A stretch of 28,455 nucleotides of DNA from a virus: IMG/VR virus record IMGVR_UViG_3300008051_000013, positions 1-28,455 of that record. One strand, 5' to 3'. Shown piece after piece: positions 12,107 through 26,475 of the stretch. The notes below the pieces were generated by a model. That model worked only from the letters and a program-made list of their open reading frames with translations, was not told the origin of the DNA and searched no databases. Numbering within the stretch: the first letter of the stretch is position 1; each line of letters opens with the position of its first letter. Position numbers and translations under genes: made by a program.

Positions 12107-13569
12107 TAGATAGATTGAGTTCTTAGTATTTTACTTTTCTCTATTTCAAAGGTATATTGTATCAATTTGTCATTTGCAACTGTCTTTTTAGTAAAGCTAG
12201 AAGTTCTCAATGTTGTAGGAGTAACATAACGATTTAAAGTATCAGTATTAGCAGAAGTAGTTTCATATCCTTTTAAGATATAAACTTCAGGACTATTTGT
12301 TAGTTCTTCAAACATTACATTATCATCTTCACTTACAAAATCTGTATTTATAGTAATTGATTCAGTAGCGTTCTTTCTAAAAGCTTTCTTTCCCCCTTTA
12401 TATCCATGTGGAGAATAAATAGATTGATTCCAAGTTCCTCCTAGTTGTTGATATGTAGTTGTTTTTGTAGATATTTTCCTTGTTGATTTTTTTGTAAATG
12501 TATAGTAGTCCCATCCTCCCCATTGATTTAACCAACAAAGTCTTATTCGTTCATATCCCCTTCCTGGTGCAGTTTCACTTCCAGCACCTGTAGTAGGACA
12601 ATTTAGATGTATAGAGTATGTTTTCCCTCCTTGAACACCTGAAGTGTTTGCAAGATAAACATCAATCCTCCCTCCATATAAATCTCCAGCATCATAGTTG
12701 GTTTTAAATGTACTACTCCAATTTCTAAGGTTTGCTGGAAAACACCCTATATATTGTATTTGTTGAGTTGCAGTTTGATTCCACTGATTCCAATTAAAAC
12801 TTCCTGTGGTAGTGTATCTTGTAATATTCTCTTGGTCTATTAAAACTCCACCCGAACTATAATATTTTAGATAAACTCTAGCAGAATAAGAACTTTGAGT
12901 GCTTGAACTTGTAAAGAATGCAAAAGTTCCATAATCATCAGCATCAGCATATTGTACTGTTGGCGCGTTAGTTAAAAATGCTGCTCCACCCCCACTTGAA
13001 GGGTAAAATGGATGCGGTTTAAATCCAAACCAATTTATTGGAGAAGTACCTATTGTTTCTCTAACTAATTCATCTGTATCTTTTAAATAGCCATTCCATA
13101 AAAGATAAAGCTCACTATTTACTGCCGTTCCTGAAATTGGCTGTATTGTATTACTTGTAGCACTAAGAGCTTCCACACTAAATGTAATTGCCATATATCT
13201 AGCAATATTTTGGCTTTGAGAAAATTTATCAACTAAATGTAATGGGTGAGGTCTATTAGTAAGTGTTTCAGAATCTTTATATTCAGTCCCTGTAGAAGCT
13301 AAATTATCTGCACTAACATAATTCTCCACTATATTACTTAGGTCAATCATTCCTACACCTGAAGCATTTGGAGTAACTTTAAAAGTTCCTCTTAAATTAT
13401 CGGCTGTCATTAAAAGAGAAGTTGAACCTGATGTTATATAAACTTCAACTATAAATTTCACCTTTGTTTGATTTATAACCGCAGGATCGTTTGAAACCCC
13501 AAAGATTACTTCTTGCCCTACTGGAAGTGTTTGATATAAAGGTGCTTGTACTATTTGTGTTACTGCCAT
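12106..13569 (-). CDS. Tail structural protein (possible baseplate component)
   Basis: 487 residues, beta-rich, no signal peptide, no coiled coil. The opening (APLYQTLPVGQEVIFGVSND) and a central Trp-rich element (RIRLCWLNQWGGWDYYTFTK) are the main landmarks; the latter is a pattern I associate with tail proteins of uncultured Bacteroidetes phages. The C-terminal 100 residues (EELTNSPEVYILKGYETT) look like another compact beta domain. The gene lies between the gp10-like protein and the 974-residue tail protein and shares the A of its stop with the start of the latter (TAATG). A tail-tip or receptor-binding partner role is likely but not shown. Confidence 0.7.
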   Translation of the reverse strand: MAVTQIVQAPLYQTLPVGQEVIFGVSNDPAVINQTKVKFIVEVYITSGSTSLLMTADNLRGTFKVTPNASGVGMIDLSNIVENYVSADNLASTGTEYKDSETLTNRPHPLHLVDKFSQSQNIARYMAITFSVEALSATSNTIQPISGTAVNSELYLLWNGYLKDTDELVRETIGTSPINWFGFKPHPFYPSSGGGAAFLTNAPTVQYADADDYGTFAFFTSSSTQSSYSARVYLKYYSSGGVLIDQENITRYTTTGSFNWNQWNQTATQQIQYIGCFPANLRNWSSTFKTNYDAGDLYGGRIDVYLANTSGVQGGKTYSIHLNCPTTGAGSETAPGRGYERIRLCWLNQWGGWDYYTFTKKSTRKISTKTTTYQQLGGTWNQSIYSPHGYKGGKKAFRKNATESITINTDFVSEDDNVMFEELTNSPEVYILKGYETTSANTDTLNRYVTPTTLRTSSFTKKTVANDKLIQYTFEIEKSKILRTQSI

Positions 13570-13575
13570 TTTATT

Positions 13576-14157
13576 TTATTTTACTGTTGTTAATCCTTTT
13601 ATTATATCTTCCTTTAATGCTCCCATTAAATCCTTACCAAAATTCTTCATTCCTAACATTAAGGAGTTTTGGAAGAAACTTATACCATGAATACCTTTAA
13701 TCCATAATACTCTCATTATTGCTGCTCTTAATCCTGCTGTTGTCATATATTGCCCTCCTGCACTTCTTGGTTGTAATCCTTTCTTTCTAATAAAAGAACT
13801 AATACCTTTTTTCATCCCTCCTTTTTGACCTGTTCCTGTTCCATACTTATATGGACTATCTTGTCTCTTTCCTTTCCAATTTATATAATGCCTTCTTCCT
13901 CCCCAACTTCCTTTATGATCCCCTGTCTTTATAGTACCACCTGCACCCTTAACTCCTTTGTCTACAAAAGTTCCATAATCTGCCATAAAGAACTTAACTG
14001 AATATCCATCCCCATCCTCAACTACTTCAAACTTTATTGACTTCTCTAAATTACCACCACCTTTACCAGCCGCACTAAGGTTCTTTTTAGCCCTTCTCAC
14101 TACTTCTTTTCCAAAGCTGTCTAATTGGTTTTTTAAATTAGTAAAGTCAACAGCCAT
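13576..14157 (-). CDS. HK97 gp10-like tail completion protein (probable)
   Basis: 193 residues, basic. Residues 1-65 (LKNQLDSFGKEVVRRAKKNL, then GNLEKSIKFEVVEDGDGYSV) match the start of gp10-like head-tail joining or tail completion proteins: an N-terminal helix, a GNL-xx-SI motif and a beta strand before YGTFVDKGVKG. A long Gly/Lys/Arg-rich loop in the middle (residues 70-130) is an insertion relative to the compact family. The last helix is amphipathic. It starts immediately at the end of the 151-residue gene (shared base at 14157). Role inferred: finishing the tail end before joining. Confidence 0.7.
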   Translation of the reverse strand: MAVDFTNLKNQLDSFGKEVVRRAKKNLSAAGKGGGNLEKSIKFEVVEDGDGYSVKFFMADYGTFVDKGVKGAGGTIKTGDHKGSWGGRRHYINWKGKRQDSPYKYGTGTGQKGGMKKGISSFIRKKGLQPRSAGGQYMTTAGLRAAIMRVLWIKGIHGISFFQNSLMLGMKNFGKDLMGALKEDIIKGLTTVK

Positions 14158-14612
14158 TACTCAACAGAAGCTGTGAATATTTCTACTCTAGGATCATAAC
14201 TTGATCCCACAGGTTGTACTTCAATAGCTGTAAGGTTTTGCATTGTGCCAAAACTTGGGTCTGTATCTGCTTCTGCTAAAGCTACTGCCTCTGCCTGACA
14301 TAATACATGTGACTGTCCTGGAGTTAATAATACTTGATAATTAGTCGCTGTTGTTATTATTCCTACTTCTATCCAACCAGCCGCATCTAAATTAGTAACT
14401 CTGATATATTTACAACGGTCCACATCTATTGCTCCTGCTGAACTGTAAGGTTGCGCTCCAAAAGTTGCTATTGTTGTAACATTTCCATTAATACAAGTTA
14501 CTACTCTTTCAAATGTATCTACAACATCTGATATTGTTACACTATTTGATGACCCTCTCAATGCTCCATTTATGGTTACACTTTCGGATATTGTTGTTAC
14601 TAAATCTGCCAT
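14157..14612 (-). CDS. Small beta-rich virion protein
   Basis: 151 residues, acidic, Val/Thr-rich, no membrane segment. The body (ERVVTCINGNVTTIATFGAQ, then YIRVTNLDAAGWIEVGIITT and QVLLTPGQSHVLCQAEAVAL) looks like a beta-sandwich of a small structural protein. It is embedded in the tail completion cluster and abuts the gp10-like gene. I recognise no named family. Confidence 0.65.
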   Translation of the reverse strand: MADLVTTISESVTINGALRGSSNSVTISDVVDTFERVVTCINGNVTTIATFGAQPYSSAGAIDVDRCKYIRVTNLDAAGWIEVGIITTATNYQVLLTPGQSHVLCQAEAVALAEADTDPSFGTMQNLTAIEVQPVGSSYDPRVEIFTASVE

Positions 14613-14616
14613 TTTT

Positions 14617-14706
14617 TTATATTTTAATTGTTATTTTTGGTGGTATTATTTGTATTTCTATTTTACCTAATTTTATTGTATTTATTTTTTTTAAGAACTC
14701 TAACAT
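14617..14706 (-). CDS. 29-residue basic micro-ORF between tail genes
   Basis: ATG at 14706 shares its A with the TAA stop of the upstream 182-residue gene (TAATG), and the ORF ends with TAA at 14617-14619, just before the next gene at 14612. The peptide begins MLEFLKKINTIKLGKIEI and is Ile/Lys-rich with alternating hydrophobic residues, without a continuous membrane helix. It fills an otherwise unexplained gap and may be coupled to its neighbours, but its amino acid content is partly what AT-rich DNA gives by chance. Confidence 0.4.
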   Translation of the reverse strand: MLEFLKKINTIKLGKIEIQIIPPKITIKI

Positions 14707-15254
14707 TAGTATCCTGCTCCTGCGTTTGTTACAGGTATGGTACAAGTGTCAAAGTCATTCATTACTTTAATGCCTATTGTAAACGTCCATCCACATAAGA
14801 GATTATCAAACCTTTCTTGAAACGGCTCTATAGTAAATTGATCTTGCGTGAAATAAAGAGGAACATTAATATCATCAACCCCTGCTTTTGATTGTCTTGA
14901 GCTGTGTCTTAGCATTCCTATAAGGTCAGTACATATTTCTAAGGTTTGATTCCACACCTCTTGTTCATTGTTCTTCATATCTAACAACTTAGTAAGCTGC
15001 TCATTTTGATATAATTGCCAATTGTCTTTTTCACTTACTAAATCGCAAATAAAGATTTGGAAATTATATATTAATTCTGCATCTCCTGTTGTTACTGATG
15101 TCGGGTTTACATGGAGTAATGGCATTTTTTCCATCTTCTCCAAGTTGATGTCGAATATGTCTCCAACTGAAACAGTAGAGATTTGTTCATGATATTCCCC
15201 TAATCTACACAAGGTATTTATTACGTTATTGTATGTCTTATTGCTTACTGGCAT
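14706..15254 (-). CDS. Tail completion/terminator-like protein (probable)
   Basis: 182 residues. Landmarks are an N-terminal helix (NVINTLCRLGEYHEQISTVS), MPLLHVNPTSVTTGDAELIY leading into a NFQIFICDLV strand, a central EVWNQTLEICTDLIGMLRHS helix and a closing YFTQDQFTIEPFQERFDNLL element with GWTFTIGIKV. This succession matches a family I associate with tail terminator/completion proteins in Bacteroidetes siphophages. It overlaps the end of the frameshifted tail chaperone reading frame by 17 bases, which argues that the overlap region is coding in both frames. A neck role is the main alternative. Confidence 0.7.
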   Translation of the reverse strand: MPVSNKTYNNVINTLCRLGEYHEQISTVSVGDIFDINLEKMEKMPLLHVNPTSVTTGDAELIYNFQIFICDLVSEKDNWQLYQNEQLTKLLDMKNNEQEVWNQTLEICTDLIGMLRHSSRQSKAGVDDINVPLYFTQDQFTIEPFQERFDNLLCGWTFTIGIKVMNDFDTCTIPVTNAGAGY

Positions 15255-16016
15255 GTTTTACTCTATTTTGTGATTCTAAATCTGTTTCATAACTTAACCA
15301 AGTTAGTGCTTCTAAAAGATTGAGTTTTGTTATTGCTTCTAGTTTTGAAACATCAGCATTTGTCAATCTATACATTACTCCGAACCAACTCCATTTTTCT
15401 GCGAAGGATTCTGAGGCAATTGCTTCTTCATTTCCTTCAGACGTTCCATTAAATATGATGGCAAAGTCCTCAACAATTCTTTGCCTAAATTGTAAAAAAA
15501 AACCAGCGCACTTTGCACTTGCTCTGCTGGCATCTTTTTCATTTCTTCCGCCCTTATATTTATATTACCATCATAGGCTTCAATAATATATATTCCATTC
15601 TTTTCTTCTACTATTGGTCTATATAGAATCGCCATCAGTTCAGGTAAGTTTCTCTCTACATCATCTTTTATAAATGTTTCTACATCTGCATACTCTCCAA
15701 GCGTAATATCATCTAGATTCGGATGAAAGCCATAACGCTTACCTTCTACTTCAATTATCTTTTTTAAAGAACTATTTTGCCCTTCTTGAAGCTCTGAAAT
15801 CTTACTCATCAAAACAACAACATCTCTTAATTCCAATTGATCAATTAACTTTTTCGGAATAGTAGATAAAGCTGATATCGTTTCCCTTGCTTCTTTACTC
15901 TTTGTACCTGTTTGAAAATCAATTAGTTTTAACCACTTCTCTAGTGTAACCTCTCCCCAACTACTAATCAATTTAAACTCCTTCTTCTTGCCCTCCTTTT
16001 TAATCTTAACCTTCAT
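15238..16016 (-). CDS. Tail assembly chaperone, frameshifted long form (gpGT-like)
   Basis: The reading frame starting at 16016 meets a run of nine T on the minus strand (15502-15494, codons GTT TTT TTT TAC). A -1 slip there enters a second frame that stays open for 85 codons to TAA at 15238-15240, giving a protein of about 259 residues. The downstream part contains SESFAEKWSWFGVMYRLTNA and LEALTWLSYETDLESQ, resembling the T-like extension of tail chaperones in Bacteroidetes phages (EKW-W-xx-Y and the later LTWLSYE). The conserved-looking EKWSWF segment lies upstream of the only ATG in that frame (15375), so it is reached by frameshifting, not by simple reinitiation. As in lambda G/GT, the long form would recruit the tape measure for tail tube assembly. 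A homopolymer sequencing error is the main alternative. Confidence 0.65.
15375..16016 (-). CDS. Tail assembly chaperone, short form (gpG-like)
   Basis: 213 residues ending at 15375. The start (KVKIKKEGKKKEFKLISSWG) and the body (EVTLEKWLKLIDFQTGTKSK, then LGEYADVETFIKDDVERNLP and MAILYRPIVEEKNG) resemble the short tail chaperone of Bacteroidetes siphophages, whose core carries an ILYRPI element. It follows the terminase with a 111-base gap that holds a candidate plus-strand RNA, and it precedes the tail completion gene. After the slip at T9, a fraction of ribosomes would make the longer form, while others finish here with a basic tail. The leader has the TCTATTATATA motif. Confidence 0.75.
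   Translation of the reverse strand: MKVKIKKEGKKKEFKLISSWGEVTLEKWLKLIDFQTGTKSKEARETISALSTIPKKLIDQLELRDVVVLMSKISELQEGQNSSLKKIIEVEGKRYGFHPNLDDITLGEYADVETFIKDDVERNLPELMAILYRPIVEEKNGIYIIEAYDGNINIRAEEMKKMPAEQVQSALVFFYNLGKELLRTLPSYLMERLKEMKKQLPQNPSQKNGVGSE
15494..15503 (-). other. Candidate -1 ribosomal frameshift site (GTTTTTTTTT)
   Basis: Minus-strand reading codons are GTT TTT TTT TAC in the first frame; slipping back one base gives TTT TTT TTA and continues open for 85 codons. T TTT TTT fits the X XXY YYZ slippery rule. I did not identify a convincing downstream pseudoknot or SD-like stimulator. Confidence 0.6.
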
Positions 16017-16018
16017 AC

Positions 16019-16033
16019 ATTATATAATAGAAA
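16019..16033 (-). promoter_or_regulatory. TCTATTATATA leader element, copy 3
   Basis: TTTCTATTATATAAT lies 2 bases before the tail chaperone ATG at 16016 on the minus strand and matches the elements before 3040 and 6726. Confidence 0.5.
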
Positions 16034-16065
16034 TTGTTATTATTTAGTTTAATAGTGTATATTTG
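16034..16065 (+). promoter_or_regulatory. Candidate plus-strand Bacteroidetes promoter for small RNA 2
   Basis: TTG at 16034-16036 and TATATTTG at 16058-16065, separated by 21 bases, fit the Bacteroidetes pattern of a -33 TTTG/TTG box and a -7 TAnnTTTG box. A strong plus-strand terminator follows about 30 bases later, with no plus-strand gene between. Confidence 0.45.
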
Positions 16066-16130
16066 CGGAGGTTTGTATTCATTTTACTTGTAAGGGGTGG
16101 TAGGCTAGAGCAACCTGCTGCCCCTTTTTA
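16066..16130 (+). ncRNA. Candidate small plus-strand RNA 2 (between terminase and tail chaperone)
   Basis: A predicted transcript of roughly 60 nt from just after the TATATTTG box to the T-run at 16125-16129. It consists of an unstructured A/T-rich 5' part and a large terminator hairpin. It is antisense to the space between the large terminase stop (16128) and the tail chaperone start (16016). The GGAGG at 16067-16071 is not followed by a usable start at a proper distance, so I do not treat it as coding. A promoter box of this kind can occur by chance in AT-rich DNA; the terminator is stronger evidence than the promoter. Confidence 0.45.
16092..16129 (+). terminator. Plus-strand intrinsic terminator
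   Basis: AAGGGGTGGTAGG (16092-16104) pairs with CCTGCTGCCCCTT (16114-16126) around a nine-base loop, followed by the end of a T5 run. Thirteen pairs form on the plus strand, three of them G-U wobbles; on the minus strand those three positions are A-C mismatches and the tail would be A-rich. The directionality is therefore clearly plus, against all coding genes. Confidence 0.75.
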
Positions 16131-17438
16131 TTGCACATAATATCTTCCAAAATTACTATCAATCTCATAATACATTCTCATAGCCAAAGCATCTGAATAA
16201 TCAGGAGACCTCCCTAATATTGCCTTGACATTATCCTTTGGAATTATCTGTAACTTATTATCCTTATCAGCATCTTTAGTTCTAACTTGCTCACACTCTT
16301 CAATCATTTGATTCTTTACATTAATATCAGAACAACTTATACCTATTTGAGCTTTATTAATTAAGTCAGCTAACTTATAATAGCATTGTGTTTTTAAGTT
16401 TTGATAGTTTTCATTTTTTAAAGCCCTTGCATTATTAACAAACCCTTGACATCTTAAATAGTCTTTAACACCACCACCAACACCATCTTCATCAACTATT
16501 ATATTCCTCAAATTAACTTGATACTCTTGTTGTAATACCTTAACAGCCTCTACAACCTCATTTACAGATGATTTAAGCAATGTTTGTATCTTTCTAAGGT
16601 GTAACCCTTCCCAGACCATTATAACCGTTCTATCAGCTCCAAACCTTGCTACATCACAACTTATGTATTTATCACCTTCAATTCCTTTTTGACTGAACAT
16701 ATTTAATATTGCATCATATTGTATTAGACTGTCATTGGTTGCGTCATATTCCCAGTTACCAAATAAGAGTCTTTGCTTGCTTAGTTCATCAAGTTCAAAT
16801 AACTGTTTCTCATAATGCTTAGATATATATGTATTATCACCAACCAGACTTTGTATAAATTTTCTGTAAGGTTTTATTGTCTTATCTTTAGCAGGTCTGT
16901 AATATTCAGTATAAACCCAGTTCTTAGCAGGGTTGCAAGTCATTAGCATTTTAGGGATTAAGTTGTTTTCATCTAGCTTATATCTTAATCTTGAAGATAC
17001 TACATTTTTAGCCTTTTCAGTTATTTGGTTTGCCTCATCAATAAAAGCTGCTGTTATTTCTAAAGAACCTAAGCTATCAAAGTTCCTGTCTGATGGATAT
17101 AAGAATAAGTCTTTAAGTATTATCTCTGAGCCATTGTAAAAGGTTATCACATTGCTTGAGCCATTAAAGGTATAATCCTCAATGGCTTTTAAATTCCAAG
17201 CTGTGCACACTTCAAAGAAAGTATTTAATGTAGTCTTTTTTAAAGCGTCTAGTTTTGATCTCCCCATTAAGTATCTAGTCTTAGGATATTCAAGACACAT
17301 TAAGATTAAATAGCTTACACCAACCCAAGACTTCCCACCACCTGCTGCACCTCCAAATAATACTTCTGTTGTCTTATCATCAAGTAAGTATTTTAAACAC
17401 TCTTTTTGAGTCTTAGTAAATTCAGGGTTAATCTCCAA
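16128..17438 (-). CDS. terL: Terminase large subunit
   Basis: 436 residues, the packaging ATPase-nuclease that cuts phage DNA and pumps it through the portal. The ATPase part shows Walker A GGAAGGGKS at residues 29-37, Walker B with catalytic Glu in AAFIDEA at 130-136, and a coupling motif TCNPAKNW at 167-174. The nuclease part shows acidic residues in CDVARFG (261-267), VDEDGVGGG (315-323) and SPDYSDA (411-417), the expected three-Asp RNase H-like site. The gene overlaps the small terminase gene by 11 bases. Length and motif order suit a phage terminase of the Terminase_6 type. Packaging strategy cannot be told; no cohesive ends are visible. Confidence 0.95.
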   Translation of the reverse strand: MEINPEFTKTQKECLKYLLDDKTTEVLFGGAAGGGKSWVGVSYLILMCLEYPKTRYLMGRSKLDALKKTTLNTFFEVCTAWNLKAIEDYTFNGSSNVITFYNGSEIILKDLFLYPSDRNFDSLGSLEITAAFIDEANQITEKAKNVVSSRLRYKLDENNLIPKMLMTCNPAKNWVYTEYYRPAKDKTIKPYRKFIQSLVGDNTYISKHYEKQLFELDELSKQRLLFGNWEYDATNDSLIQYDAILNMFSQKGIEGDKYISCDVARFGADRTVIMVWEGLHLRKIQTLLKSSVNEVVEAVKVLQQEYQVNLRNIIVDEDGVGGGVKDYLRCQGFVNNARALKNENYQNLKTQCYYKLADLINKAQIGISCSDINVKNQMIEECEQVRTKDADKDNKLQIIPKDNVKAILGRSPDYSDALAMRMYYEIDSNFGRYYVQ

Positions 17439-17766
17439 GATTTATATTGATTTTAATCTTATCATCTTTTGATGTTAAATCTACTTTGTTTGTTTCATTC
17501 CAACCAAGCTGTGTCTTTGCTCCATGTATTACAACTGAAGGCACTTTGTCTTTTATACATTCATAATACTTAGACTTAATAAAATCTTTTGCAATATTTT
17601 CAACCTCTTTCACCTTAGCTGCAAATTCTTCATCTTCTTTTAGCCATTTATAATAATTAGTTCTTGATAAGTCACATGCCTTTAATGCTGTAGTTATTAC
17701 CCCTAGACTTGACTCTAATGCTTTTAGCATTCTCTCTTTGTTAATCTTTGTTCTATTTTGTTCCAT
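17428..17766 (-). CDS. terS: Terminase small subunit (HTH, probable)
   Basis: 112 residues from the ATG at 17766; a TTG six bases further upstream is possible but less likely. The N-terminal half is a helix-turn-helix (MLKALESSLGVITTALKACD, then LSRTNYYKWLKEDEEFAAKV) like those in small terminases and insertion-element-type HTH proteins, followed by a long helix (VENIAKDFIKSKYYECI) and a C-terminal LGWNETNKVDL segment often seen in such proteins. It would bind the packaging start site and load the large subunit, with which it overlaps by 11 bases. The candidate promoter of small RNA 1 lies across its start on the opposite strand. Confidence 0.8.
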   Translation of the reverse strand: MEQNRTKINKERMLKALESSLGVITTALKACDLSRTNYYKWLKEDEEFAAKVKEVENIAKDFIKSKYYECIKDKVPSVVIHGAKTQLGWNETNKVDLTSKDDKIKININLGD

Positions 17767-17790
17767 ATTCAAATAAATTTATTATATTTG
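17757..17790 (+). promoter_or_regulatory. Candidate plus-strand Bacteroidetes promoter for small RNA 1
   Basis: TTTG at 17757-17760 and TATATTTG at 17783-17790, with a 22-base spacer, match the -33/-7 Bacteroidetes pattern. The upstream box lies inside the first codons of the small terminase gene on the opposite strand. A strong plus-strand terminator follows at 17845-17876. Confidence 0.5.
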
Positions 17791-17876
17791 CTTAATCGTT
17801 CTTTATAAAATGGTGCGATATTAAGCCCATCTTTTTATCGTATGAAGGCGCCTCCAAGAGGGGGTGTCTTTTTTTT
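17791..17876 (+). ncRNA. Candidate small plus-strand RNA 1 with structured 5' domain
   Basis: Predicted RNA of about 75-86 nt ending in T8. GCTTAAT (17790-17796) can pair with ATTAAGC (17820-17826). AAAATGG (17807-17813), inside that loop, can pair with CCAT-C-TTTT (17827-17835, one bulged C), directly 3' of the first stem. The two helices are either mutually exclusive or form a non-classical pseudoknot. The RNA is antisense to the leader between the methyltransferase stop and the small terminase start, so it could control late-block entry in cis or act in trans. No plus-strand ORF of note lies in it. Confidence 0.5.
17845..17876 (+). terminator. Plus-strand intrinsic terminator with T8 tail
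   Basis: AAGGCGCCTCC (17845-17855), loop AAGA, GGGGGTGTCTT (17860-17870), then further T to 17876. All 11 pairs form on the plus strand with three G-U wobbles; on the minus strand these become mismatches. This is a textbook rho-independent terminator pointing away from the coding direction. Confidence 0.8.
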
Positions 17877-19032
17877 ATATCTTCTTTGCTTTTTGTCCTG
17901 TAAATTGTTCCCATCTTTCTATTATTACATCACAATACTTTTCATCTAATTCCATTCCGTAACATTTTCTATTAAGTTTTTCTGCTGCTATTAATGTTGA
18001 CCCGCTTCCTAAAAACAAATCCATTACTATATTATTTTTATTACTTGAGTGAATTAAAGCATTTTCACATAATTCTAAGGGCTTCATTGTAGGGTGTAGG
18101 TCAGATTTTTTAGGTCTTTTAAAATCCCATACATTTGTTAAAGTTCTATCATTAGTAAATGTTTTACCACTATCAACCCAACCAAACCAACACGGCTCAT
18201 ATTTATTTTGATATTTACCTCTTCCTAATGTAAACTGGTCTTTATTCCAGATTATAGTTGTTGAATTATGTAGTTTTTCATCTAAAACAGTAAACATTAT
18301 TCTTCCATCTTTCCCCTGACCACTCCAACAATAAACAATTCCATCACAAAACAGCTTTATATTTTTAACAAAACCTTCTACAAATGTTTTAAAATCATCA
18401 CTACTCATATTGTCATTTTTTATATCTCTTACTTTAAATTTTGGATGCTTTATATTTCCATAATCTATATTGTAAGGAGGGTCAGTAAATACCATATCAG
18501 CTTTTTCCCCATTCATTAGTTTAGCAACATCATCTGAACTTGTACTATCTCCGCACATAACTCGGTGTTCTCCTAGCTGCCAAATATCACCTCTCTTTAC
18601 TTTGCTTTCTTTTACTTCAGGTATTTCATCATCTTCTATTAGTCCTGCTTCAGGTTCTTTATCATCTTCATTTTCCCATACATCTAAACCCCACTCAGCA
18701 AGTTGAACGCTATCCCATTCATTAGCTAACATATCCCATTCCCATTCTCCAAACCCTACATTATCTTTAACTATAAATTCTTTCTTTTGTTCTTCAGTAA
18801 GTCCTTCAGCTACTTCTATCCATACTTCTTTAAGCCCTGCATCTTTACTTGCCTTTAATCTCATATTGCCGCCTAAGACAATCATATCTTCATCAACTAC
18901 TATTGGTCTTAGCTTCAACATCTCAGGAAATTCTTGTATTGACTTTACTAGCTTTTTAAATTTATCATTTTTTATTATTCTTGGATTGCTAGGGTTTCCC
19001 TTTACTTTGCTAATCTTAACTTGTTGTTTCAT
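17875..19032 (-). CDS. ParB-like domain fused to DNA methyltransferase (N4/N6, orphan)
   Basis: 385 residues. Residues 1-80 are a ParB/sulfiredoxin-type domain (KGNPSNPRIIKNDKFKKLVK, then LRPIVVDEDMIVLGGNMRLK). A linker of about 55 acidic residues leads to a methyltransferase of the DNA N4/N6 class: WQLGEHRVMCGDS at 151-163, catalytic DPPY at 184-187, HPTMKP at 313-318 and the SAM-binding FLGSGST at 340-346. It would methylate adenine or cytosine amino groups in phage DNA, most likely protecting it from host restriction; no cognate nuclease is visible. Motif order (DPPY before the SAM motif) indicates the beta class. The gene precedes the terminase pair, separated by candidate RNA 1. Confidence 0.9.
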   Translation of the reverse strand: MKQQVKISKVKGNPSNPRIIKNDKFKKLVKSIQEFPEMLKLRPIVVDEDMIVLGGNMRLKASKDAGLKEVWIEVAEGLTEEQKKEFIVKDNVGFGEWEWDMLANEWDSVQLAEWGLDVWENEDDKEPEAGLIEDDEIPEVKESKVKRGDIWQLGEHRVMCGDSTSSDDVAKLMNGEKADMVFTDPPYNIDYGNIKHPKFKVRDIKNDNMSSDDFKTFVEGFVKNIKLFCDGIVYCWSGQGKDGRIMFTVLDEKLHNSTTIIWNKDQFTLGRGKYQNKYEPCWFGWVDSGKTFTNDRTLTNVWDFKRPKKSDLHPTMKPLELCENALIHSSNKNNIVMDLFLGSGSTLIAAEKLNRKCYGMELDEKYCDVIIERWEQFTGQKAKKI

Positions 19033-19047
19033 AATATATAATAGAAA
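19033..19047 (-). promoter_or_regulatory. TCTATTATATA leader element, copy 4
   Basis: TTTCTATTATATATT immediately precedes the methyltransferase ATG at 19032 on the minus strand; it differs from the copies at 3043 and 16019 by one base and shares the 11-base core. Confidence 0.5.
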
Positions 19048-19057
19048 TTAATTGATT

Positions 19058-19315
19058 TTATTTAAATGGCTCATTAATACCTCTTTCGCCTAATAGTTTT
19101 TCTTTTGCTCCATCCCAAAGTTTATCATGCCTTCTTTTTTTACTTAATGATTCTTCAGTTCTAATTAGGTTAGGCATTCCTTCTTCTGGTTCAGCTTCCA
19201 TCCATAAACCACAATCACATAAAGCATGAATAGACCGCCATCTACCATCTCTTAGGGCTAAGGTAGTTTTCCCTATGTTTTCTTCATTACCACATTCGCA
19301 TTTATATAGTGTCAT
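19058..19315 (-). CDS. Small probable zinc-ribbon protein
   Basis: 85 residues with two C-x-C pairs (C6/C8 and C33/C35) separated by a strand-rich stretch (KTTLALRDGRWRSIHALCDC), as in a small zinc ribbon; the second half (MEAEPEEGMPNLIRTEESLS) is charged. Such proteins are frequent near DUF3310 genes in Bacteroidetes phages and their function is not known to me. The start overlaps the end of the DUF3310 gene by four bases (ATGA), indicating coupled translation. Confidence 0.7.
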   Translation of the reverse strand: MTLYKCECGNEENIGKTTLALRDGRWRSIHALCDCGLWMEAEPEEGMPNLIRTEESLSKKRRHDKLWDGAKEKLLGERGINEPFK

Positions 19316-19575
19316 GTTGCTAATCCTCCTATTTTAATATCACTCTCTTGATAGAGCTTATCCAATTCAAAGTGTAAATGATTAATAGCTTTCTGTATGT
19401 CTTGCTGTGCTGGATTGCCATCTTTTCTTCCCGCTCTTAATAAGTAAGAACAAGCCGTACCAACATTATAGCTTAAATCAAAATCTTCTACAACCTTTCT
19501 AGCTGAGTAGCCATATTTTTTGCCTGTGTAGTAATGAGGTTCAGGAGTTTTTTTGTAATCTTCTTTCTTTGTCAT
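19312..19575 (-). CDS. DUF3310 family protein
   Basis: 87 residues with a clear DUF3310 (nucleotide kinase-associated) pattern: HYYTGKKYGYSARKVVEDFD, then LSYNVGTACSYLLRAGRKDG and NPAQQDIQKAINHLHFELDK. In other phages this domain is found alone or attached to nucleotide-metabolism enzymes; here it is alone and of typical length. Its biochemical role is not established. It overlaps the preceding 71-residue gene by 35 bases and the zinc-ribbon gene downstream by four. Confidence 0.85.
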   Translation of the reverse strand: MTKKEDYKKTPEPHYYTGKKYGYSARKVVEDFDLSYNVGTACSYLLRAGRKDGNPAQQDIQKAINHLHFELDKLYQESDIKIGGLAT

Positions 19576-19756
19576 TTTCTAGTATTTTAATTAATCCTTC
19601 TTTTGTATTTAATCTTCTTGCATTTGGGAATTGACGATATTCTTCAGGGCTGTATATTAGCTTGACTTCCCTTACTAAATTGTCATCATCATATTTAACA
19701 ATCCACCTACTTGAATGATGATGGTCGCTCCTCTTTAAGTGTGTTAGATAACTCAT
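19541..19756 (-). CDS. Small basic protein of unknown function
   Basis: 71 residues, no membrane segment. Contains a His-rich patch (SDHHHSSRWIVKYDDDNLVR) and a helical end (NTKEGLIKILENDKERRLQK). It overlaps the zinc-binding 133-residue gene by four bases (ATGA) and the DUF3310 gene by 35, so it is packed into the early operon. I recognise no family. Confidence 0.65.
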   Translation of the reverse strand: MSYLTHLKRSDHHHSSRWIVKYDDDNLVREVKLIYSPEEYRQFPNARRLNTKEGLIKILENDKERRLQKNS

Positions 19757-20154
19757 TCTGAATATTTTTTATATAGTTTTTTAATTCCATCAAAGCATGT
19801 TGATATACAAGAACCACAATTAGTCCCTGTTCCATAGTTGGTCATGTGTATAGTGTTGTACGTTTCTATCATTCGCTTTTTAGCTACAACATCTTTTGCT
19901 CTGCCTGTTTTTAAATCTTTCCACATATCTAATATTTCATCTATTATTTCTTGTGGCAAGTCTTCAGGTGTTTCTATTTCAGTTGTTTTTTGCCATTTTT
20001 TCTGACCACATTCCATTGGTGCTAATCGTGCCTTAATTTTCATGAAACAGCCGCAGTCTTTACAAGTTCCTGTTGGTTTAAAATAATAAACACAATCTTT
20101 GCATATTGCTATTCTATCTTTATAGACTTCATTAGGAACAAAAAACTTGTTCAT
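19753..20154 (-). CDS. Cys-rich, probably zinc-binding protein
   Basis: 133 residues with eight or more cysteines. An N-terminal cluster has C18, C21, C31, C34, C36 and C49 (RIAICKDCVYYFKPTGTCKD, then CGCFMKIKARL and MECGQKKW), resembling a phage rubredoxin-like zinc knuckle. A C-terminal trio C113, C116, C120 (NCGSCISTC) may bind a second ion. Between them lies a helical, acidic linker. The GCFM-xx-KARL segment is recurrent in phage early proteins, possibly in host takeover or transcription; that is inference. The start overlaps the stop of the upstream 24-residue micro-ORF (ATGA). Confidence 0.75.
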   Translation of the reverse strand: MNKFFVPNEVYKDRIAICKDCVYYFKPTGTCKDCGCFMKIKARLAPMECGQKKWQKTTEIETPEDLPQEIIDEILDMWKDLKTGRAKDVVAKKRMIETYNTIHMTNYGTGTNCGSCISTCFDGIKKLYKKYSE

Positions 20155-20225
20155 TTATTTCTCCACTCAGGGTGTTTAAATCCAAACTGCATAATAAAGC
20201 TGTCATGAGTTTTTGGGTTATACAT
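20151..20225 (-). CDS. 24-residue micro-ORF bridging two early genes
   Basis: The ATG at 20225 overlaps the last codons of the sigma-like gene (stop 20218), and its TGA at 20151-20153 overlaps the ATG of the next gene at 20154 (ATGA). The peptide starts MYNPKTHDSFIMQFGF and ends HPEWRNK; no membrane helix. Exact bridging of the 63-base gap at both ends suggests a real coupled cistron. Its composition is less A/T-driven than expected for random ORFs (Trp, His, Pro present). Confidence 0.5.
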   Translation of the reverse strand: MYNPKTHDSFIMQFGFKHPEWRNK

Positions 20226-20799
20226 CTTCATTTAATTCTTTTTTTAATATTGTTCGTACTTTATCTATTGTTGTAAATAAACTGTTGCGACTTATCCTAG
20301 TCTTAGCCGCAAGTGAATCGAGGGTATTGCCCTCATAATAATATAACTTAAATAATTCTCTATCATACCAATTTAACTTATCAAGCTGCACGTCAATTAA
20401 TTCTAACTTCTTCAAGCTCTCATTATCTACTTCTTTGTTCGGAAGATTATATATATTTTTATTATTAGCAATATTATGTGCCACATCATCATTACTAAAA
20501 GTTGTACTACAACTATAACTAGAGCTATCAATATGTGTATAATACTTTTCATACTTATAATAAAAATTACTTCTTGTACTTGTTAATGCCCTCCTTAATG
20601 CAACAGCTCCATATCTTGTAATTCCTTCAATACCATCATTCTCATATATTTTTCTGATTACTTGTGGATTTGCTTGAAGTAGATATAACATAAGTTCTTG
20701 TACAGCTTCATTAATCTTATTTTCATCAGTTGTAAGCCCATAAGCCATAGTCCTGAATTTGTCTGTTAATTTTGATATTTCTATATATATATCAGTCAT
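20218..20799 (-). CDS. Sigma factor-like HTH regulator
   Basis: 193 residues. The N-terminal half (NEAVQELMLYLLQANPQVIR) resembles sigma region 2-like helices in small phage sigma-like proteins, the middle is Asn/Ser-rich and loosely conserved, and the C-terminus (residues 135-190: LDKLNWYDRELFKLYYYEGN, then LDSLAAKTRISRNSLFTTID and KVRTILKKEL) is a region-4-type helix-turn-helix. It could redirect host RNA polymerase to phage promoters or act as a DNA-binding regulator; the protein lacks a full sigma-70 core-binding signature. It overlaps the preceding 118-residue gene by eight bases. Confidence 0.7.
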   Translation of the reverse strand: MTDIYIEISKLTDKFRTMAYGLTTDENKINEAVQELMLYLLQANPQVIRKIYENDGIEGITRYGAVALRRALTSTRSNFYYKYEKYYTHIDSSSYSCSTTFSNDDVAHNIANNKNIYNLPNKEVDNESLKKLELIDVQLDKLNWYDRELFKLYYYEGNTLDSLAAKTRISRNSLFTTIDKVRTILKKELNEDV

Positions 20800-21148
20800 T
20801 TTTTGGTTCTAAAGCATCTAACCTGCTAACAGTTTCTTGGAGTAGTTGATCTAATACCACCTTATATGCCCTTACAACTGCTGAATTAGTTTTTGTTTCT
20901 ACTCCTGCAAAGAACCCACTTGTTGCAACTGATATGTTTATAGGTAAAATTACAAGCCAATCATAAAAGTTATTTTCTCTAACTCCCTCTCCATATCCGT
21001 TTGAATATTCTGTAATTAATTCAATTACTTCTAAATAATTTCTATACCTTACTTGTGATGAAACTTCTTCTGCAAACTGTTTACACATGCTAACATAAAC
21101 TTCAACTATTAATTTATGTTCTTCACTTGAATAAATCGCTGTCTGCAT
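20792..21148 (-). CDS. Conserved-looking early protein, unknown function
   Basis: 118 residues. Mostly helical, with an aromatic-hydrophobic centre (NNFYDWLVILPINISVATSG) that is too short and polar for a confident membrane segment, and amphipathic helices on both sides. It lies between NinG and the sigma-like gene in the early block. I recognise no family. Confidence 0.6.
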   Translation of the reverse strand: MQTAIYSSEEHKLIVEVYVSMCKQFAEEVSSQVRYRNYLEVIELITEYSNGYGEGVRENNFYDWLVILPINISVATSGFFAGVETKTNSAVVRAYKVVLDQLLQETVSRLDALEPKND

Positions 21149-21170
21149 ACGGCTAAATTATGATAAATGT

Positions 21171-21587
21171 TTACTCAATTCCCTTTTCTTTTTTTAAGTT
21201 TTTAACAGCCTCTTTGTAATAACTAATCTTATCTTCATAATCTATCCTAGAAAACTTCTTGATTTGTCTTGCTTTTATTTCTAATTCTTCTGCTTTACCT
21301 TCACCATATTTAGCATCTAAATTCATAGCGAAACGGAACTGTTCTCCTCCACGAAAAATATTACACCCGCTACACTGTATTTGACAATTCCCATCCTCAC
21401 AATAACGAGTTGCCATAAAACGTCTAGACTGGAAATGACCATTCTGCATACTTCCTGTTCTATAGTGTGCTACCTTACCACAAGTAAAACACTGTACCAT
21501 TCCTTCATAGTTTGTTGCTTCTCTAAGTCTTATGAAAAGACTAAACCATTTATCTAGTTCTTTTTTTAATTTGCTTATTGACTTCAA
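21171..21587 (-). CDS. ninG: NinG-like recombination nuclease
   Basis: 138 residues matching lambda NinG (Rap) family features: an N-terminal helix (LDKWFSLFIRLREATNYEGM), CFTCGK with C33/C36, a NGHFQSRRFMATRY segment at 49-62 and a second pair C72/C75 in QIQCSGCNIFRGG. These make a zinc-stabilised HNH-type core; NinG-family proteins resolve branched DNA in phage recombination. Length is near the compact end of the family. It starts four bases inside the HTH gene end (overlap 21584-21587). Confidence 0.9.
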   Translation of the reverse strand: MKSISKLKKELDKWFSLFIRLREATNYEGMVQCFTCGKVAHYRTGSMQNGHFQSRRFMATRYCEDGNCQIQCSGCNIFRGGEQFRFAMNLDAKYGEGKAEELEIKARQIKKFSRIDYEDKISYYKEAVKNLKKEKGIE

Positions 21588-21859
21588 AATAATATATCTT
21601 GAATAAATTGTTGAGGTGGATCTACATAAGTGTATTGAGCAATTGTTGTGTTTCTTCCAAATCTTGTTTTCTTAGTTAAGGGTATGCTATCAATATCATA
21701 TCCATTTTTTTTGTGCTTAAAGATTATATCAGCAAGTCTAGTTGCTCCATATTCTTTTATAGCTTCATAACTTGTAATAGTTCCATAAGTCTTTAAATGC
21801 CAAAGGACAGCATCTGCTTGGCTTTTTACTTCTTCTGATGTGATTGTGATTGTTTTCAT
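21584..21859 (-). CDS. Helix-turn-helix protein (HTH_39-like)
   Basis: 91 residues from the ATG at 21859. An in-frame ATG at 21958 would add 33 residues, but that extra stretch is poly-Lys/Asn low-complexity and is better explained by a micro-ORF in another frame, so I prefer the downstream start, which is coupled by ATGA to that micro-ORF. The core (ADAVLWHLKTYGTITSYEAI, then KEYGATRLADIIFKHKKNGY) is a winged helix-turn-helix often found next to replication or recombination genes of phages, and the end (TTIAQYTYVDPPQ) gives the wing strand. Role inferred: DNA-binding regulator or replication accessory. Confidence 0.8.
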   Translation of the reverse strand: MKTITITSEEVKSQADAVLWHLKTYGTITSYEAIKEYGATRLADIIFKHKKNGYDIDSIPLTKKTRFGRNTTIAQYTYVDPPQQFIQDILF

Positions 21860-21927
21860 TTTAGTTTTCTTATTAGCCACATTACAATGGCTGTTATTAT
21901 TACCCAACCTATCATTTGATTTCCCAT
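21856..21927 (-). CDS. 23-residue single-pass membrane micropeptide
   Basis: Reads ATG at 21927 (or 21915, giving 19 residues) to TGA at 21856-21858. The internal ATG overlaps the TGA of the preceding 71-residue gene (ATGA), and the stop overlaps the ATG of the HTH gene (ATGA). The peptide contains GWVIITAIVMWLI followed by RKLK, a single hydrophobic helix with a basic C-terminus. Overlap coupling at both ends and a clean membrane profile support it as real. Function unknown. Confidence 0.55.
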   Translation of the reverse strand: MGNQMIGWVIITAIVMWLIRKLK

Positions 21928-22127
21928 TTTTCCTTTTCTTCTTTTGTAAAATATCCATCAGCTTCTAAATCATCTGCAAATTTTCTAGCTTCTTTATATA
22001 ATTTTATATTATTTTTTTCTATATAATTTATAAATTCTTCTTGCCAACATATCTTTTCAAAATTATTTCTATTTACTTTAAGTGCGTTTAATAGTAATTG
22101 TAATGGAGCTGTTTCTTCTTTTTTCAT
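21912..22127 (-). CDS. Small helical protein, unknown function
   Basis: 71 residues, Glu/Lys-rich, all helical by composition (PLQLLLNALKVNRNNFEKIC, then YIEKNNIKLYKEARKFADDL). No membrane segment or metal site. It precedes the membrane micropeptide with ATGA overlap and follows the 122-residue gene. I recognise no family. Confidence 0.6.
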   Translation of the reverse strand: MKKEETAPLQLLLNALKVNRNNFEKICWQEEFINYIEKNNIKLYKEARKFADDLEADGYFTKEEKEKWEIK

Positions 22128-22138
22128 TTTAATAGTTT

Positions 22139-22507
22139 TTATTTTAATAGTTTTGGTTCTGGTCTGTAATTTGGTACTTGTTTAGGGTTTTCCCCTTTAT
22201 CAACTCTTGATCTTGCATCCCATATTAAATCTTGATGTTGCCTTAACCATTTCATATAAACAGGAACAGTTAAATGAATAAAATCACTTTTCATTGGACT
22301 CCTAACTCCTAAACTAAAAGCATTTTCAGCATCTTCAAAGTAAAAATTCTTGTACATTCTAAATAAATCACTTGCTAAACTTTTAGACATTTGCTCAATA
22401 GTTTCTTCTTCAATATTATTTTGCCCTATTTCTATGTATGTTTTACTTAATAAATCTACTGAAGATAATATTAAATCTTGTTTTGACATTGTTTTAATTG
22501 GTCTCAT
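22139..22507 (-). CDS. Early protein, possibly replication-associated
   Basis: 122 residues, helical. The central part (SLASDLFRMYKNFYFEDAEN, then AFSLGVRSPMKSDFIHLTVP and VYMKWLRQHQDLIWDARSRV) has a pattern I associate with small proteins encoded next to replisome organisers in Bacteroidetes phages: a helical start, a GVR motif and a W-x-xx-HQ helix. The gene begins exactly where the replisome organiser ends (shared base 22507). A helicase-loading partner is one possibility; I cannot show it. Confidence 0.65.
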   Translation of the reverse strand: MRPIKTMSKQDLILSSVDLLSKTYIEIGQNNIEEETIEQMSKSLASDLFRMYKNFYFEDAENAFSLGVRSPMKSDFIHLTVPVYMKWLRQHQDLIWDARSRVDKGENPKQVPNYRPEPKLLK

Positions 22508-23118
22508 TATTCAAATTGTTTTTTTATTTTATCTTTTACATTTAAGTTTTTTTGTAAGTGTTGATGTATCTTACTCATTGTTTGTTTTTTTGTTTCCCAA
22601 TTTTTTTGATTTTTTTCCCAGCGCAATAATCTTAATTTTATTTCAAACGTGCTTTGTTTTTGGTATCTCATTTTCTTTTTACCTTCAGTCCAATAATTTA
22701 TAAAGTCCTCTAACATATCTTTAGAGTAATCAAAAGTCATAACCTCAGAAACAAATTTTTCTTTAGTTATATTTATATTACTTGTATTATTAATACTTGT
22801 ATTATTACCTTTCATCTTTTTAAGTATAGGGGTATCAATCTTTTTCGTGATACCTATACATCTTTTTATTATCTGTTTTTTAGAGTTTCTTTCTACAACT
22901 ACTTTTATAAATTCTAATTTTTTTAAATCACTAATCCAACTGCTTATAGTATTTTTACTAACTCCATATAATTCAGCAAAATAATTATTAGTTGCATAGC
23001 AGTATCCCAGTTTTCCGCTTAGTGCTGTTATTTCTCCATATAAAAGTTTGGCATTAGGTTTTAAATTAGAATACCTTACTTCAGAAGGAATAATAGCATA
23101 GTAACTGGGTTTGCTCAT
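22507..23118 (-). CDS. Replisome organiser-like winged-helix protein
   Basis: 203 residues. The N-terminus is a winged helix (SNLKPNAKLLYGEITALSGK, then NNYFAELYGVSKNTISSWIS and DLKKLEFIKVVVERNSKKQI) as in phage replication initiators of the DnaD/replisome organiser type. A low-complexity Asn/Thr/Ile linker over 105-117 leads to a C-terminal helical part (LEDFINYWTEGKKKMRYQKQ, then FEIKLRLLRWEKNQKNW), a common helicase-loader-like tail in Bacteroidetes phages. It likely binds the origin and loads host DnaB, since the phage has no own helicase. It overlaps the DnaA-like gene by one base. Confidence 0.8.
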   Translation of the reverse strand: MSKPSYYAIIPSEVRYSNLKPNAKLLYGEITALSGKLGYCYATNNYFAELYGVSKNTISSWISDLKKLEFIKVVVERNSKKQIIKRCIGITKKIDTPILKKMKGNNTSINNTSNINITKEKFVSEVMTFDYSKDMLEDFINYWTEGKKKMRYQKQSTFEIKLRLLRWEKNQKNWETKKQTMSKIHQHLQKNLNVKDKIKKQFE

Positions 23119-23627
23119 TAAATAATTTTTATTGTATAGTGATAATTTTCGAGTGCTAACTTAACATTTTCTAATTGATTTGAGAAGTCAAAATAAGAAG
23201 TTTTAATAACACACTTAACTTCACCACTTTTTACTTCTAGCAAAACATCAGATTCTAACTTTTCAACAACTCCATTTTGCAACAAATGGCTTTTCATAAA
23301 TTCTGAATCTGCAAATATATTCTTTGAATCATCAACATGCTTATAAGCTTTATAAATTTTATCAAATGCCTTTCTGTAAATAACACAATGTTTGAAATTC
23401 TTTTTATGATTACTTTCATAGTGATATGTAATACACCTATCTCGATTAAGGACTTTGGCTATTACAGTTCTATGAATACCCTCCTCTGTTAAACCAATAT
23501 ATCCTGCAATTGATCTAGCTGACTGTAAGTGCCTCTTTCTGCTCTTTAAGGCAAGAGAGCCTTCAGGCAACCCCATTACTCTTGTAGTGAGGTTGCAAAT
23601 GGCTTTAAAGTTTAATTCTTCAGTCAT
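23118..23627 (-). CDS. DnaA domain IV-like DNA-binding protein without AAA+ domain
   Basis: 169 residues from the ATG at 23627, which follows the SSB stop by one base (TAATATG); an in-frame ATG at 23648 would overlap the SSB gene by 20 bases. Residues 10-75 resemble the C-terminal DNA-binding domain of DnaA: KSRKRHLQSARSIAGYIGLT, then GIHRTVIAKVLNRDR and CITYHYESNHKKN, the LNRDRCITYHY stretch standing where DnaA has GGRDHTTV. There is no ATPase part. The C-terminal 90 residues are unrecognised. It may bind DnaA-like boxes at the phage origin, such as the 24956-24980 repeat, or sequester host sites; that is inference. Confidence 0.75.
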   Translation of the reverse strand: MTEELNFKAICNLTTRVMGLPEGSLALKSRKRHLQSARSIAGYIGLTEEGIHRTVIAKVLNRDRCITYHYESNHKKNFKHCVIYRKAFDKIYKAYKHVDDSKNIFADSEFMKSHLLQNGVVEKLESDVLLEVKSGEVKCVIKTSYFDFSNQLENVKLALENYHYTIKII

Positions 23628-23628
23628 A

Positions 23629-23958
23629 TTAGAATGGCATTTCATCATCAGTAGTTACAAACTCTGAATTAACTTCGGGATTGTTACTTTGATTAGAGAA
23701 ATGATAACCGTCAATATTGTGGTAGTATTTCCCTTTATATTCTCTTGAATAAACATTACAAAGAATAGTTACTGTCATTCCTTCTTTTAACTTATCTAAA
23801 TGCTTAATCTTATCCTCACCAAAAGCACTTACTGCAATTATGTTATTAAATTCACCACCTGTATCAACTACAACTGTTTGTTTTTCCCAAGCCTTACCCG
23901 CCTTACTTGTACCTGCTTCTTTTTGAAGCTTCTTAATTAGTTTTCCTGTTACTTCCAT
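23629..23958 (-). CDS. ssb: Single-stranded DNA-binding protein (DUF3127-like)
   Basis: 109 residues. The N-terminus (MEVTGKLIKKLQKEAGTSKA) and the strand-rich middle (VVVDTGGEFNNIIAVSAFGE, then VTILCNVYSREYKGKYYHNI) fit the OB-fold DUF3127 family found in Bacteroidetes. The C-terminal tip is acidic and ends DDEMPF (residues 104-109), the classical SSB tail that recruits partners. It would coat ssDNA during replication and recombination. It follows the possible annealing protein and precedes the DnaA-like gene by one base. Confidence 0.9.
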   Translation of the reverse strand: MEVTGKLIKKLQKEAGTSKAGKAWEKQTVVVDTGGEFNNIIAVSAFGEDKIKHLDKLKEGMTVTILCNVYSREYKGKYYHNIDGYHFSNQSNNPEVNSEFVTTDDEMPF

Positions 23959-23979
23959 TTTTTAATTATTTATTGATTA

Positions 23980-24366
23980 TTATTTTTGTTTAAATTCCTC
24001 GCTCTCATCTTCACCGAAACATCCTAGTTCATACATACCAGTTAATTGGAGTACCGCTCTGCTAAAACTTCGCTTTTGAGCCATTTCTAAACAATACCAA
24101 CTATTAGTATTTCCGTCTTTAAATGTACTTCCCTTTAACGCTGATCCAAATGTCTCTATAGTGTTCCCCTCTTTTGTTGCTGTAGCCTTAACAGCTGCAA
24201 AATTAGGCTCACACTTGATACATTCATACGAAATAGATATTGATTCATAAGAGGCGATGCGCTCAATCCCAGACCTAGTGATGATAAGATAATGAGCATG
24301 CTTGAAAATATCATCTTTTTCTAATCCGTATTTAATATACTTTTCTTTAATTTTTTCTGTTTTCAT
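23980..24366 (-). CDS. Possible single-strand annealing (Rad52-like) recombination protein
   Basis: 128 residues. Key segments are HYLIITRSGIERIASYESIS, then VKATATKEGNTIETFGSALK and a C-terminal helix AQKRSFSRAVLQLTG (96-110) ending in an acidic GEDESEEF. The K-R-xx-SRAVL-x-LTG helix resembles the conserved helix of Rad52/Sak-type and other phage annealing proteins, and the protein is encoded next to an SSB, the usual partner. The family assignment is tentative, since the protein is short and no diagnostic active site exists. Alternative: a SSB-partner of unknown type. Confidence 0.6.
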   Translation of the reverse strand: MKTEKIKEKYIKYGLEKDDIFKHAHYLIITRSGIERIASYESISISYECIKCEPNFAAVKATATKEGNTIETFGSALKGSTFKDGNTNSWYCLEMAQKRSFSRAVLQLTGMYELGCFGEDESEEFKQK

Positions 24367-24367
24367 A

Positions 24368-24649
24368 TTATCTTAAATTTATTATTAGTGCCTTATTTTT
24401 ATAGTGTTCTGCATATTCTTTTAATTTATCTTTATCTTCAAAGTCATAAGCCTCATCAAGATTAAGTCCTGACATATCACAGTAAGAATCTAGAGCATCA
24501 TCAATTTGTTTTCTAGTTCCAAATATACGAATTGCTGTGCTAACCTCTTGAATATCATTAATATAACAATCAAGTCTATTATCCCATTGTGCAAAGCTGT
24601 GGTATTCACCATTAGGATAAAAATAAAATGTATCGCATTCTAGTTTCAT
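24368..24649 (-). CDS. Small acidic protein, unknown function
   Basis: 93 residues, acidic. The middle (YINDIQEVSTAIRIFGTRKQ, then IDDALDSYCDMSGLNLDEAY) is helical; no metal or membrane signature. It lies second in the early operon, two bases after the 76-residue gene and one base before the possible annealing protein. I recognise no family. Confidence 0.6.
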   Translation of the reverse strand: MKLECDTFYFYPNGEYHSFAQWDNRLDCYINDIQEVSTAIRIFGTRKQIDDALDSYCDMSGLNLDEAYDFEDKDKLKEYAEHYKNKALIINLR

Positions 24650-24651
24650 AA

Positions 24652-24882
24652 TTAGTAGTTAAATTGTAAGAATAAATAAAAAGACCCATATCCTAAAGCT
24701 AACATTGCTAAACAAGCACAACAGAATTTGATATTGCTTATCTCTGTATTAGGGTCTTGAATAAGATAGTCTTCAGAAGTATTAATAAAATTTCCTTTAG
24801 CATTTTTAGCATAGAAGAAGTCTGCTGCCTCTTTAGGACTTGCATTAAAAGTGTGACCTGTTTTTCTGTTTGTAATTTTCAT
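24652..24882 (-). CDS. First early gene: small protein with C-terminal membrane anchor
   Basis: 76 residues. The N-terminal half is soluble (KITNRKTGHTFNASPKEAAD, FFYAKNAKGNF); residues 52-73 (IKFCCACLAMLALGYGSFYL, then FLQF) form one hydrophobic segment, so the protein is probably C-terminally anchored with its N-terminus in the cytoplasm. As the first gene after the control region it is likely an immediate-early product, perhaps in takeover of the cell envelope or superinfection exclusion; that is inference from position only. Confidence 0.65.
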   Translation of the reverse strand: MKITNRKTGHTFNASPKEAADFFYAKNAKGNFINTSEDYLIQDPNTEISNIKFCCACLAMLALGYGSFYLFLQFNY

Positions 24883-24909
24883 TTTCTTTTTTTATTGATT
24901 AATATGGTA

Positions 24910-24917
24910 CAAAAGTA
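24910..24917 (-). promoter_or_regulatory. Candidate early promoter -7 box (TACTTTTG)
   Basis: Minus-strand TACTTTTG matches TAnnTTTG exactly and ends 28 bases before the first early ATG at 24882. No convincing TTTG at -33 is visible at the standard spacing, so the assignment rests on the -7 box and position. Confidence 0.45.
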
Positions 24918-24950
24918 AAAAGAAATATTGATTACTAACACATTTACTTA

Positions 24951-24958
24951 CAAAGTTA
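24951..24958 (-). promoter_or_regulatory. Candidate early promoter -7 box overlapping an operator (TAACTTTG)
   Basis: Minus-strand TAACTTTG matches TAnnTTTG and overlaps by three bases the inverted repeat at 24956-24980, a layout that would let a protein bound to the repeat block initiation. A standard -33 TTTG is not clear. Confidence 0.45.
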
Positions 24959-24980
24959 TTAACAATTTAAGTGTTAATAA
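24956..24980. repeat. Perfect 9-bp inverted repeat, DnaA-box-like arms
   Basis: TTATTAACA and TGTTAATAA (perfect reverse complements) around seven bases. Each arm matches the DnaA box consensus TTATNCACA at all but one position (A for C at position 6). The site overlaps the candidate promoter box at 24951-24958 and may be an operator, an origin element, or both. Confidence 0.7.
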
Positions 24981-24987
24981 TGTTTTG

Positions 24988-25018: not shown

Positions 25019-25052
25019 ATATAGGGGTTAAAAGATTGTGAAAGTGCCTAAA

Positions 25053-26057: not shown

Positions 26058-26080
26058 AATTATTTATTTTAAAATTAATA

Positions 26081-26473: not shown

Positions 26474-26475
26474 TG

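Follow-up and report, generated by a model that had tools for sequence, protein, structure and literature searches.

The stretch of DNA analysed as a whole, hereafter the window, is a virus record of 28,455 bases in which almost all protein genes lie on the minus strand, among them a gene for a ParB-N6/N4 DNA methyltransferase and the small terminase subunit gene terS, which is followed by terL (Terminase_3, 3e-16). Since terL is closest to that of Flavobacterium phage 11b (54%) and then to that of Cellulophaga phage phi10:1 (52%), we infer a flavobacterium as the most likely host. Inside the gap between the methyltransferase gene and terS, on the opposite strand, lies a compact element (17783-17876, +) whose parts are collected in Table 1. 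A preliminary description of this DNA had drawn attention to a plus-strand cassette made of TTTG, 22 bases, TATATTTG, an 11-pair stem with an AAGA loop and a run of eight T residues, and each of these is present as it stated. The predicted RNA would carry AUCGUUCUUUAUAA as its conserved unpaired 5' segment and end at about 17869-17876, giving a length of about 75-82 nt with a probable start at 17795; the small size proposed earlier holds, and its range of 75-86 nt is corrected accordingly. The predicted 5' end lies about 28 nt upstream of the terS start codon and the RNA does not overlap the terS coding sequence. Of the earlier view that the RNA is antisense to the terS leader, the position opposite the methyltransferase-terS gap stands and an overlap with terS does not, only the -33 box falling within its codons.

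Table 1. Features of the methyltransferase-terS junction and of other sites named in the text; positions refer to the window unless another record is given.
Feature	Position	Strand	Remarks
TTTG, candidate -33 promoter box	17757..17760	+	within terS codons 3-4
TATATTTG, -7 box (TAnnTTTG; expected position -12 to -5)	17783..17790	+	8/8 columns without change among the 12 homologues
Predicted start of the RNA, with unpaired 5' segment AUCGUUCUUUAUAAAAUG	17795..17812	+	first 14 nt nearly invariant
Hairpin 1, GUGCGAUA/UAUCGUAU, inner AAG/CUU, loop CCCAU	17813..17843	+	132/132 cells paired, 12 sequences
Intrinsic terminator stem, 11 pairs	17845..17870	+	131/132 cells paired; arms AAGGCGCCTCC (17845-17855) and GGGGGTGTCTT (17860-17870), loop AAGA (17856-17859)
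T8 termination tract	17869..17876	+	T tract 3' of the stem in all homologues
terS, small terminase subunit	17428..17766	-	phrog_4044, E 2e-5
ParB-N6/N4 DNA methyltransferase	17875..19032	-	Pfam N6_N4_Mtase 9e-28; phrog_498 1e-120
Conserved gene downstream of terL, with ETFIKNG codons	15375-16016		
Sigma-factor-like protein	20218-20799	-	phrog_1740, E 3e-5
Promoter-identical 21 nt	L411:1501-1521		corresponds to Polaribacter phage Freya_1 6876-6896
tRNA-like gene	L030:3916-3987	+	Rfam tRNA 35.6 bits

The ParB-methyltransferase adjoins every copy of the element that was found. Those beside the element in the window and in two further contigs (L084 and L099) have their N- and C-terminal parts in common and differ in the middle, as if this were a recognition part exchanged between phages. 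The window further encodes a sigma-factor-like protein; the late genes might be served by a sigma factor of the phage itself, whereas the plus-strand RNA has a host-type promoter.

Taken alone, the pairing of TTTG with TAnnTTTG is not above chance, two instances being found where 1.9 are expected. The promoter gains its weight from its conservation in 12 homologues together with its absence at the same place in relatives lacking the element, where none of 187 start sites has the box pair. The flavobacterial sigma-A consensus for the -7 element, TAnnTTTG at -12 to -5 (PMC9723704), places the RNA start at A17795, and the alignment shows three of the four columns between the -7 box and this start varying and 13 of the 14 columns from 17795 onwards invariant. 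All 11 phages that carry the element and have this terS start possess the -33 TTTG; where the same methyltransferase occurs and the element does not, TTTG is found in 13 cases and TCTG in 11 (Fisher p 0.007, phylogeny not corrected), and when the comparison is made with all element-less loci p is 0.12. Independent support for the promoter identity of the sequence comes from the Polaribacter phages Freya and Danklef, which have only the promoter in common with the element and carry an identical AATTTATTATATTTGCTTAAT of 21 nt about 38 nt before their portal gene. A minus-strand promoter for terS inside the gap was also considered and rejected, as it is not conserved in the alignment.

An independent sRNA gene is expected to have its own host-type promoter, an intrinsic terminator on the same strand and a conserved RNA fold in place of a conserved reading frame. 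At the element these are TTTG-22-TATATTTG, the conserved 11-pair stem with T8, and a fold that is kept as the short reading frame varies in the alignment. The folding energy of the plus-strand RNA is -27.7 kcal/mol (z -4.06 relative to 200 shuffles; z -1.0 for the minus strand), and its terminator is the strongest terminator-like site within positions 10000-28455, the part that was scanned. No tRNA or tmRNA was called. The consensus fold of the homologues is the window's own fold, with a consensus energy of -26.5, a z of -7.8 against 300 column shuffles on the plus strand, and a structure conservation index of 1.04 there versus 0.38 on the minus strand. Where the preliminary description saw two competing helices, a single conserved 8-pair helix with the inner AAG/CUU is found, which makes the idea of competition unneeded.

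Standard pairs occupy 263 of the 264 pair cells in the 12 sequences. Twelve paired columns vary, and pairing is kept in 11 of them when read as plus-strand RNA and in one when read as minus-strand RNA, which bears out the earlier statement that the stem is intact on the plus strand only; the one remaining column breaks its pair as plus-strand RNA in a single sequence. In hairpin 1 four pairs vary, and every change is of the A-U/G-U type. Both the stems and the promoter boxes are kept in related phages, as had been anticipated. The compensation that had been anticipated with them is nearly all one-sided (A-U/G-U or G-C/G-U): one pair alone, in the terminator stem, changes on both sides, and a control in which the 3' letters were shuffled is not significant (49 of 500). 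The evidence is hence one of consistent one-sided variation plus stability, and not of rich covariation. Overall, the proposal of a plus-strand phage RNA gene with a housekeeping-type promoter and an intrinsic terminator is backed by 12 homologues, and on sequence grounds it is very probable that the element encodes a real RNA gene on this strand.

Two pattern scans gave 12 distinct versions of the element, the window included, in 14 related viral contigs, with one copy per record and always in the methyltransferase-terS gap. An HMM search of the neighbourhoods of 160 terS relatives yielded no further copies, a second anchor scan with TAATCGTTCTTTATAA gave chance matches only and no new copies, and the long loop pattern had no exact match in genome_contigs. 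Neither 50,697 records of isolated phages, nor plasmids, nor 397 Flavobacteriaceae genomes contained the element. In the latter, covariance-model hits were host terminators only, scoring about 31-35 bits where true copies reach about 115; one of them, which contains a CCGTTCTTT segment, is a terminator together with the 3' terminus of a coding gene. A DNA search of the same genomes gave short chance matches only. No family of Rfam release 15 reached its gathering score; the weak matches to STnc370 (22 bits, 54 needed) and nse_sRNA (18.7, 75 needed) stem from the terminator.

The methyltransferase lies directly upstream of terS at 46 loci, 12 with the element and 34 without, and every relative with another gene next to terS also lacks it. 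The gap, as scored, measures 104-128 nt with the element and 2 nt without (one scored as 11), and the element forms a self-contained insertion of about 110 bp. On the terS tree its presence needs 10 changes versus 10.2 for shuffled labels; the tree is poorly resolved, and its well-supported branches alone force 6 changes. Two loci, L057 with the element and L059 without, even encode the same terS protein. This scatter, and the identity of terS across presence and absence, indicate that the element is exchanged among phages, the probable route being recombination between the conserved end of the methyltransferase gene and the start of terS. That homology may by itself account for the invariable presence of the methyltransferase beside the element. 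Pairwise differences amount to 6.9% at unpaired RNA positions and 0% in the -7 box, against 19.7% (methyltransferase end) and 27.5% (terS end) at third codon positions that leave the amino acid unchanged; by this comparison of sequences the element is under purifying selection. The preliminary description had suggested that the RNA controls entry into the late gene block. Such a role is unlikely, given that the element is dispensable, exchanged and missing from most relatives, and its dispensability and exchange agree better with an accessory role directed at the host or at rival phages. Scattered presence at a single junction is as found for accessory (moron) functions.

The interpretation we favour is that of a phage accessory sRNA gene of about 75-82 nt, driven by the host primary sigma factor and most likely acting through base pairing in trans, a reading that deserves belief and doubt in equal measure. 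Transcription by the host primary sigma factor from TTTG/TAnnTTTG would be independent of the protein genes and opposite to them, and would end at the element's own terminator, before the methyltransferase gene. The resulting RNA would carry an unpaired 5' segment, a hairpin displaying AAG-CCCAU-CUU and a terminator hairpin, and could pair in trans through the 5' segment, the C-rich loop or both, in the manner of GibS, its partners being transcripts of the host or of rival phages. That the RNA pairs in trans with its targets at all is a step to which, on the present analysis, we give an even chance. Its transcription, its 5' and 3' ends, its pairing and a host-side target are all things that we infer.

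Searches for partners of such pairing were made in phages and presumed hosts. The complement of a 16-nt seed, with up to 3 mismatches, occurs on the coding strand only in the element itself, and six element-bearing phages have no conserved initiation-region target in common. In duplex predictions on phage translation starts the 5' segment performs no better than shuffles (23 of 30 as good); the loop beats most shuffles, but at unrelated genes, none of them common between phages. The loop complement is not enriched in 199 Flavobacteriaceae genomes, among which the true host may not be, and its candidacy as a start-codon target (AAAAGATGGGCTT) was rejected, the roughly 50 matches being about as many as in a reversed control and scattered over genes. 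A further complementarity, of about 14 nt, links the RNA 5' end with the FIKNG codons of the conserved gene that lies just downstream of terL (in L184, L052 and others). It varies with third-position changes and is the same in phages with and without the element, and was judged a coincidence of codon use, though one of interest should the RNA turn out to act on phage transcripts.

It is conceivable, if rather improbable, that the RNA instead binds a protein or serves as a decoy, its fold and unpaired segments titrating a host or phage protein such as a defence protein, or NusB-S10 by way of a boxA-like 5' segment. The conservation of the fold and of both unpaired segments would suit this, as would an accessory distribution, which fits counter-defence, and CGUUCUUUAUAA resembles the general boxA type, as in E. 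coli (UGCUCUUUAACA). However, the Flavobacteriaceae rrn leader element is AGTTCATTGACATATTG or near it in most genomes, which is a partial match only, and no similar RNA was found in the 397 host-family genomes. A boxA/nut antitermination site as such was rejected on the same comparison, the element having CGTTCTTTATAAAATGG against the host family's AGTTCATTGACATATTG.

Somewhat less probable still is a cis-antisense RNA, which would pair with a polycistronic minus-strand transcript over the methyltransferase-terS gap and cut it or uncouple the two genes. Complementarity would be full by position if such a transcript runs through, and the insertion parts two genes that otherwise nearly touch, the methyltransferase reaching up to or into terS. 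A perfect antisense, however, needs neither a conserved sequence nor a fold, yet the plus-strand fold is kept and the minus-strand one broken, and most relatives do without the element. There is also a slim chance of a conserved transcription unit with a functionless product, that is, a stray promoter with a terminator that keeps antisense transcription in check, or of a short peptide leader. The promoter and terminator are indeed the best-defined parts, and the RNA has an AUG after an A-rich stretch; however, the loop and the 5' segment are conserved at least as well as the terminator, and the short frame flips between 4 and 11 codons by a stop/Gln change. A role as DNA, whether as a packaging (cos/pac) site or as an insulator, to which the neighbouring terS and the inverted repeat could point, is very improbable, as the element is missing from most of 163 loci with a related terS and its variation is strand-asymmetric, with G-U pairs on one strand only.

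For the favoured reading of pairing in trans, the nearest known counterpart is GibS of Bacteroides thetaiotaomicron, which uses its conserved unpaired 5' region to pair with translation starts (PMC7366714). The element's arrangement of unpaired 5' segment, C-rich hairpin loop, terminator and housekeeping promoter is the one seen in base-pairing sRNAs. Like the element it has its own promoter, a conserved unpaired 5' segment, hairpins, an intrinsic terminator and no ORF, and it belongs to the phylum of the element's presumed host, whose mRNAs are largely not Shine-Dalgarno-led. GibS differs in being chromosomal, about 145 nt long and in having tested targets, whereas the element is phage-borne and shorter, with no sequence relation found between the two. 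Small RNA genes of enterobacterial and other phages, including ipeX, DicF, AgvB, IsrK and STnc6030, act on host or rival-phage RNA (reviewed in PMC12197685), as proposed here, in other hosts and with other sequences; the main text of that review contains neither 'Bacteroid' nor 'Flavobacter'. Rfp18 and other sRNAs of Flavobacterium psychrophilum (PMC9723704) are likewise independent structured sRNAs of Flavobacteriaceae, and differ from the element in being chromosomal. In the literature searched, no sRNA encoded by a phage of Bacteroidota was described. Phage-encoded sRNAs are a known kind, and the element is, as far as its sequence goes, a new RNA family within it.

Bacteroidota are abundant bacteria of the ocean and the gut with promoter and translation-start signals of their own. 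Here a small RNA whose single-stranded segments are invariant occurs in some phages and is missing from otherwise close ones, which provides a ready-made comparison, and a gene simple to knock out, for finding out what the phages of these bacteria do with RNA. More speculatively, it could represent a new RNA family of marine flavophages, a mobile regulatory RNA that enters and leaves a single junction of the packaging genes and, in a protein-free manner, reprogrammes the RNA of the host or stops a host defence or a competing phage.

The junction itself appears to be variable. Among 163 loci the gene 5' of terS varies widely between close relatives (the methyltransferase, a tRNA-like gene or other, unidentified genes), and the 5' side of terS would seem to be a hot spot of exchange. 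The tRNA-like gene lies in the same junction upstream of terS in L030 and in about 13 other loci (for example L008, L010, L036, L048, L051, L061 and L065). It is not called by ARAGORN, and its anticodon arm has either 6 pairs and a 6-nt loop or 5 pairs and an 8-nt loop; in L048 the sequence of the stem differs and its pairing is kept.
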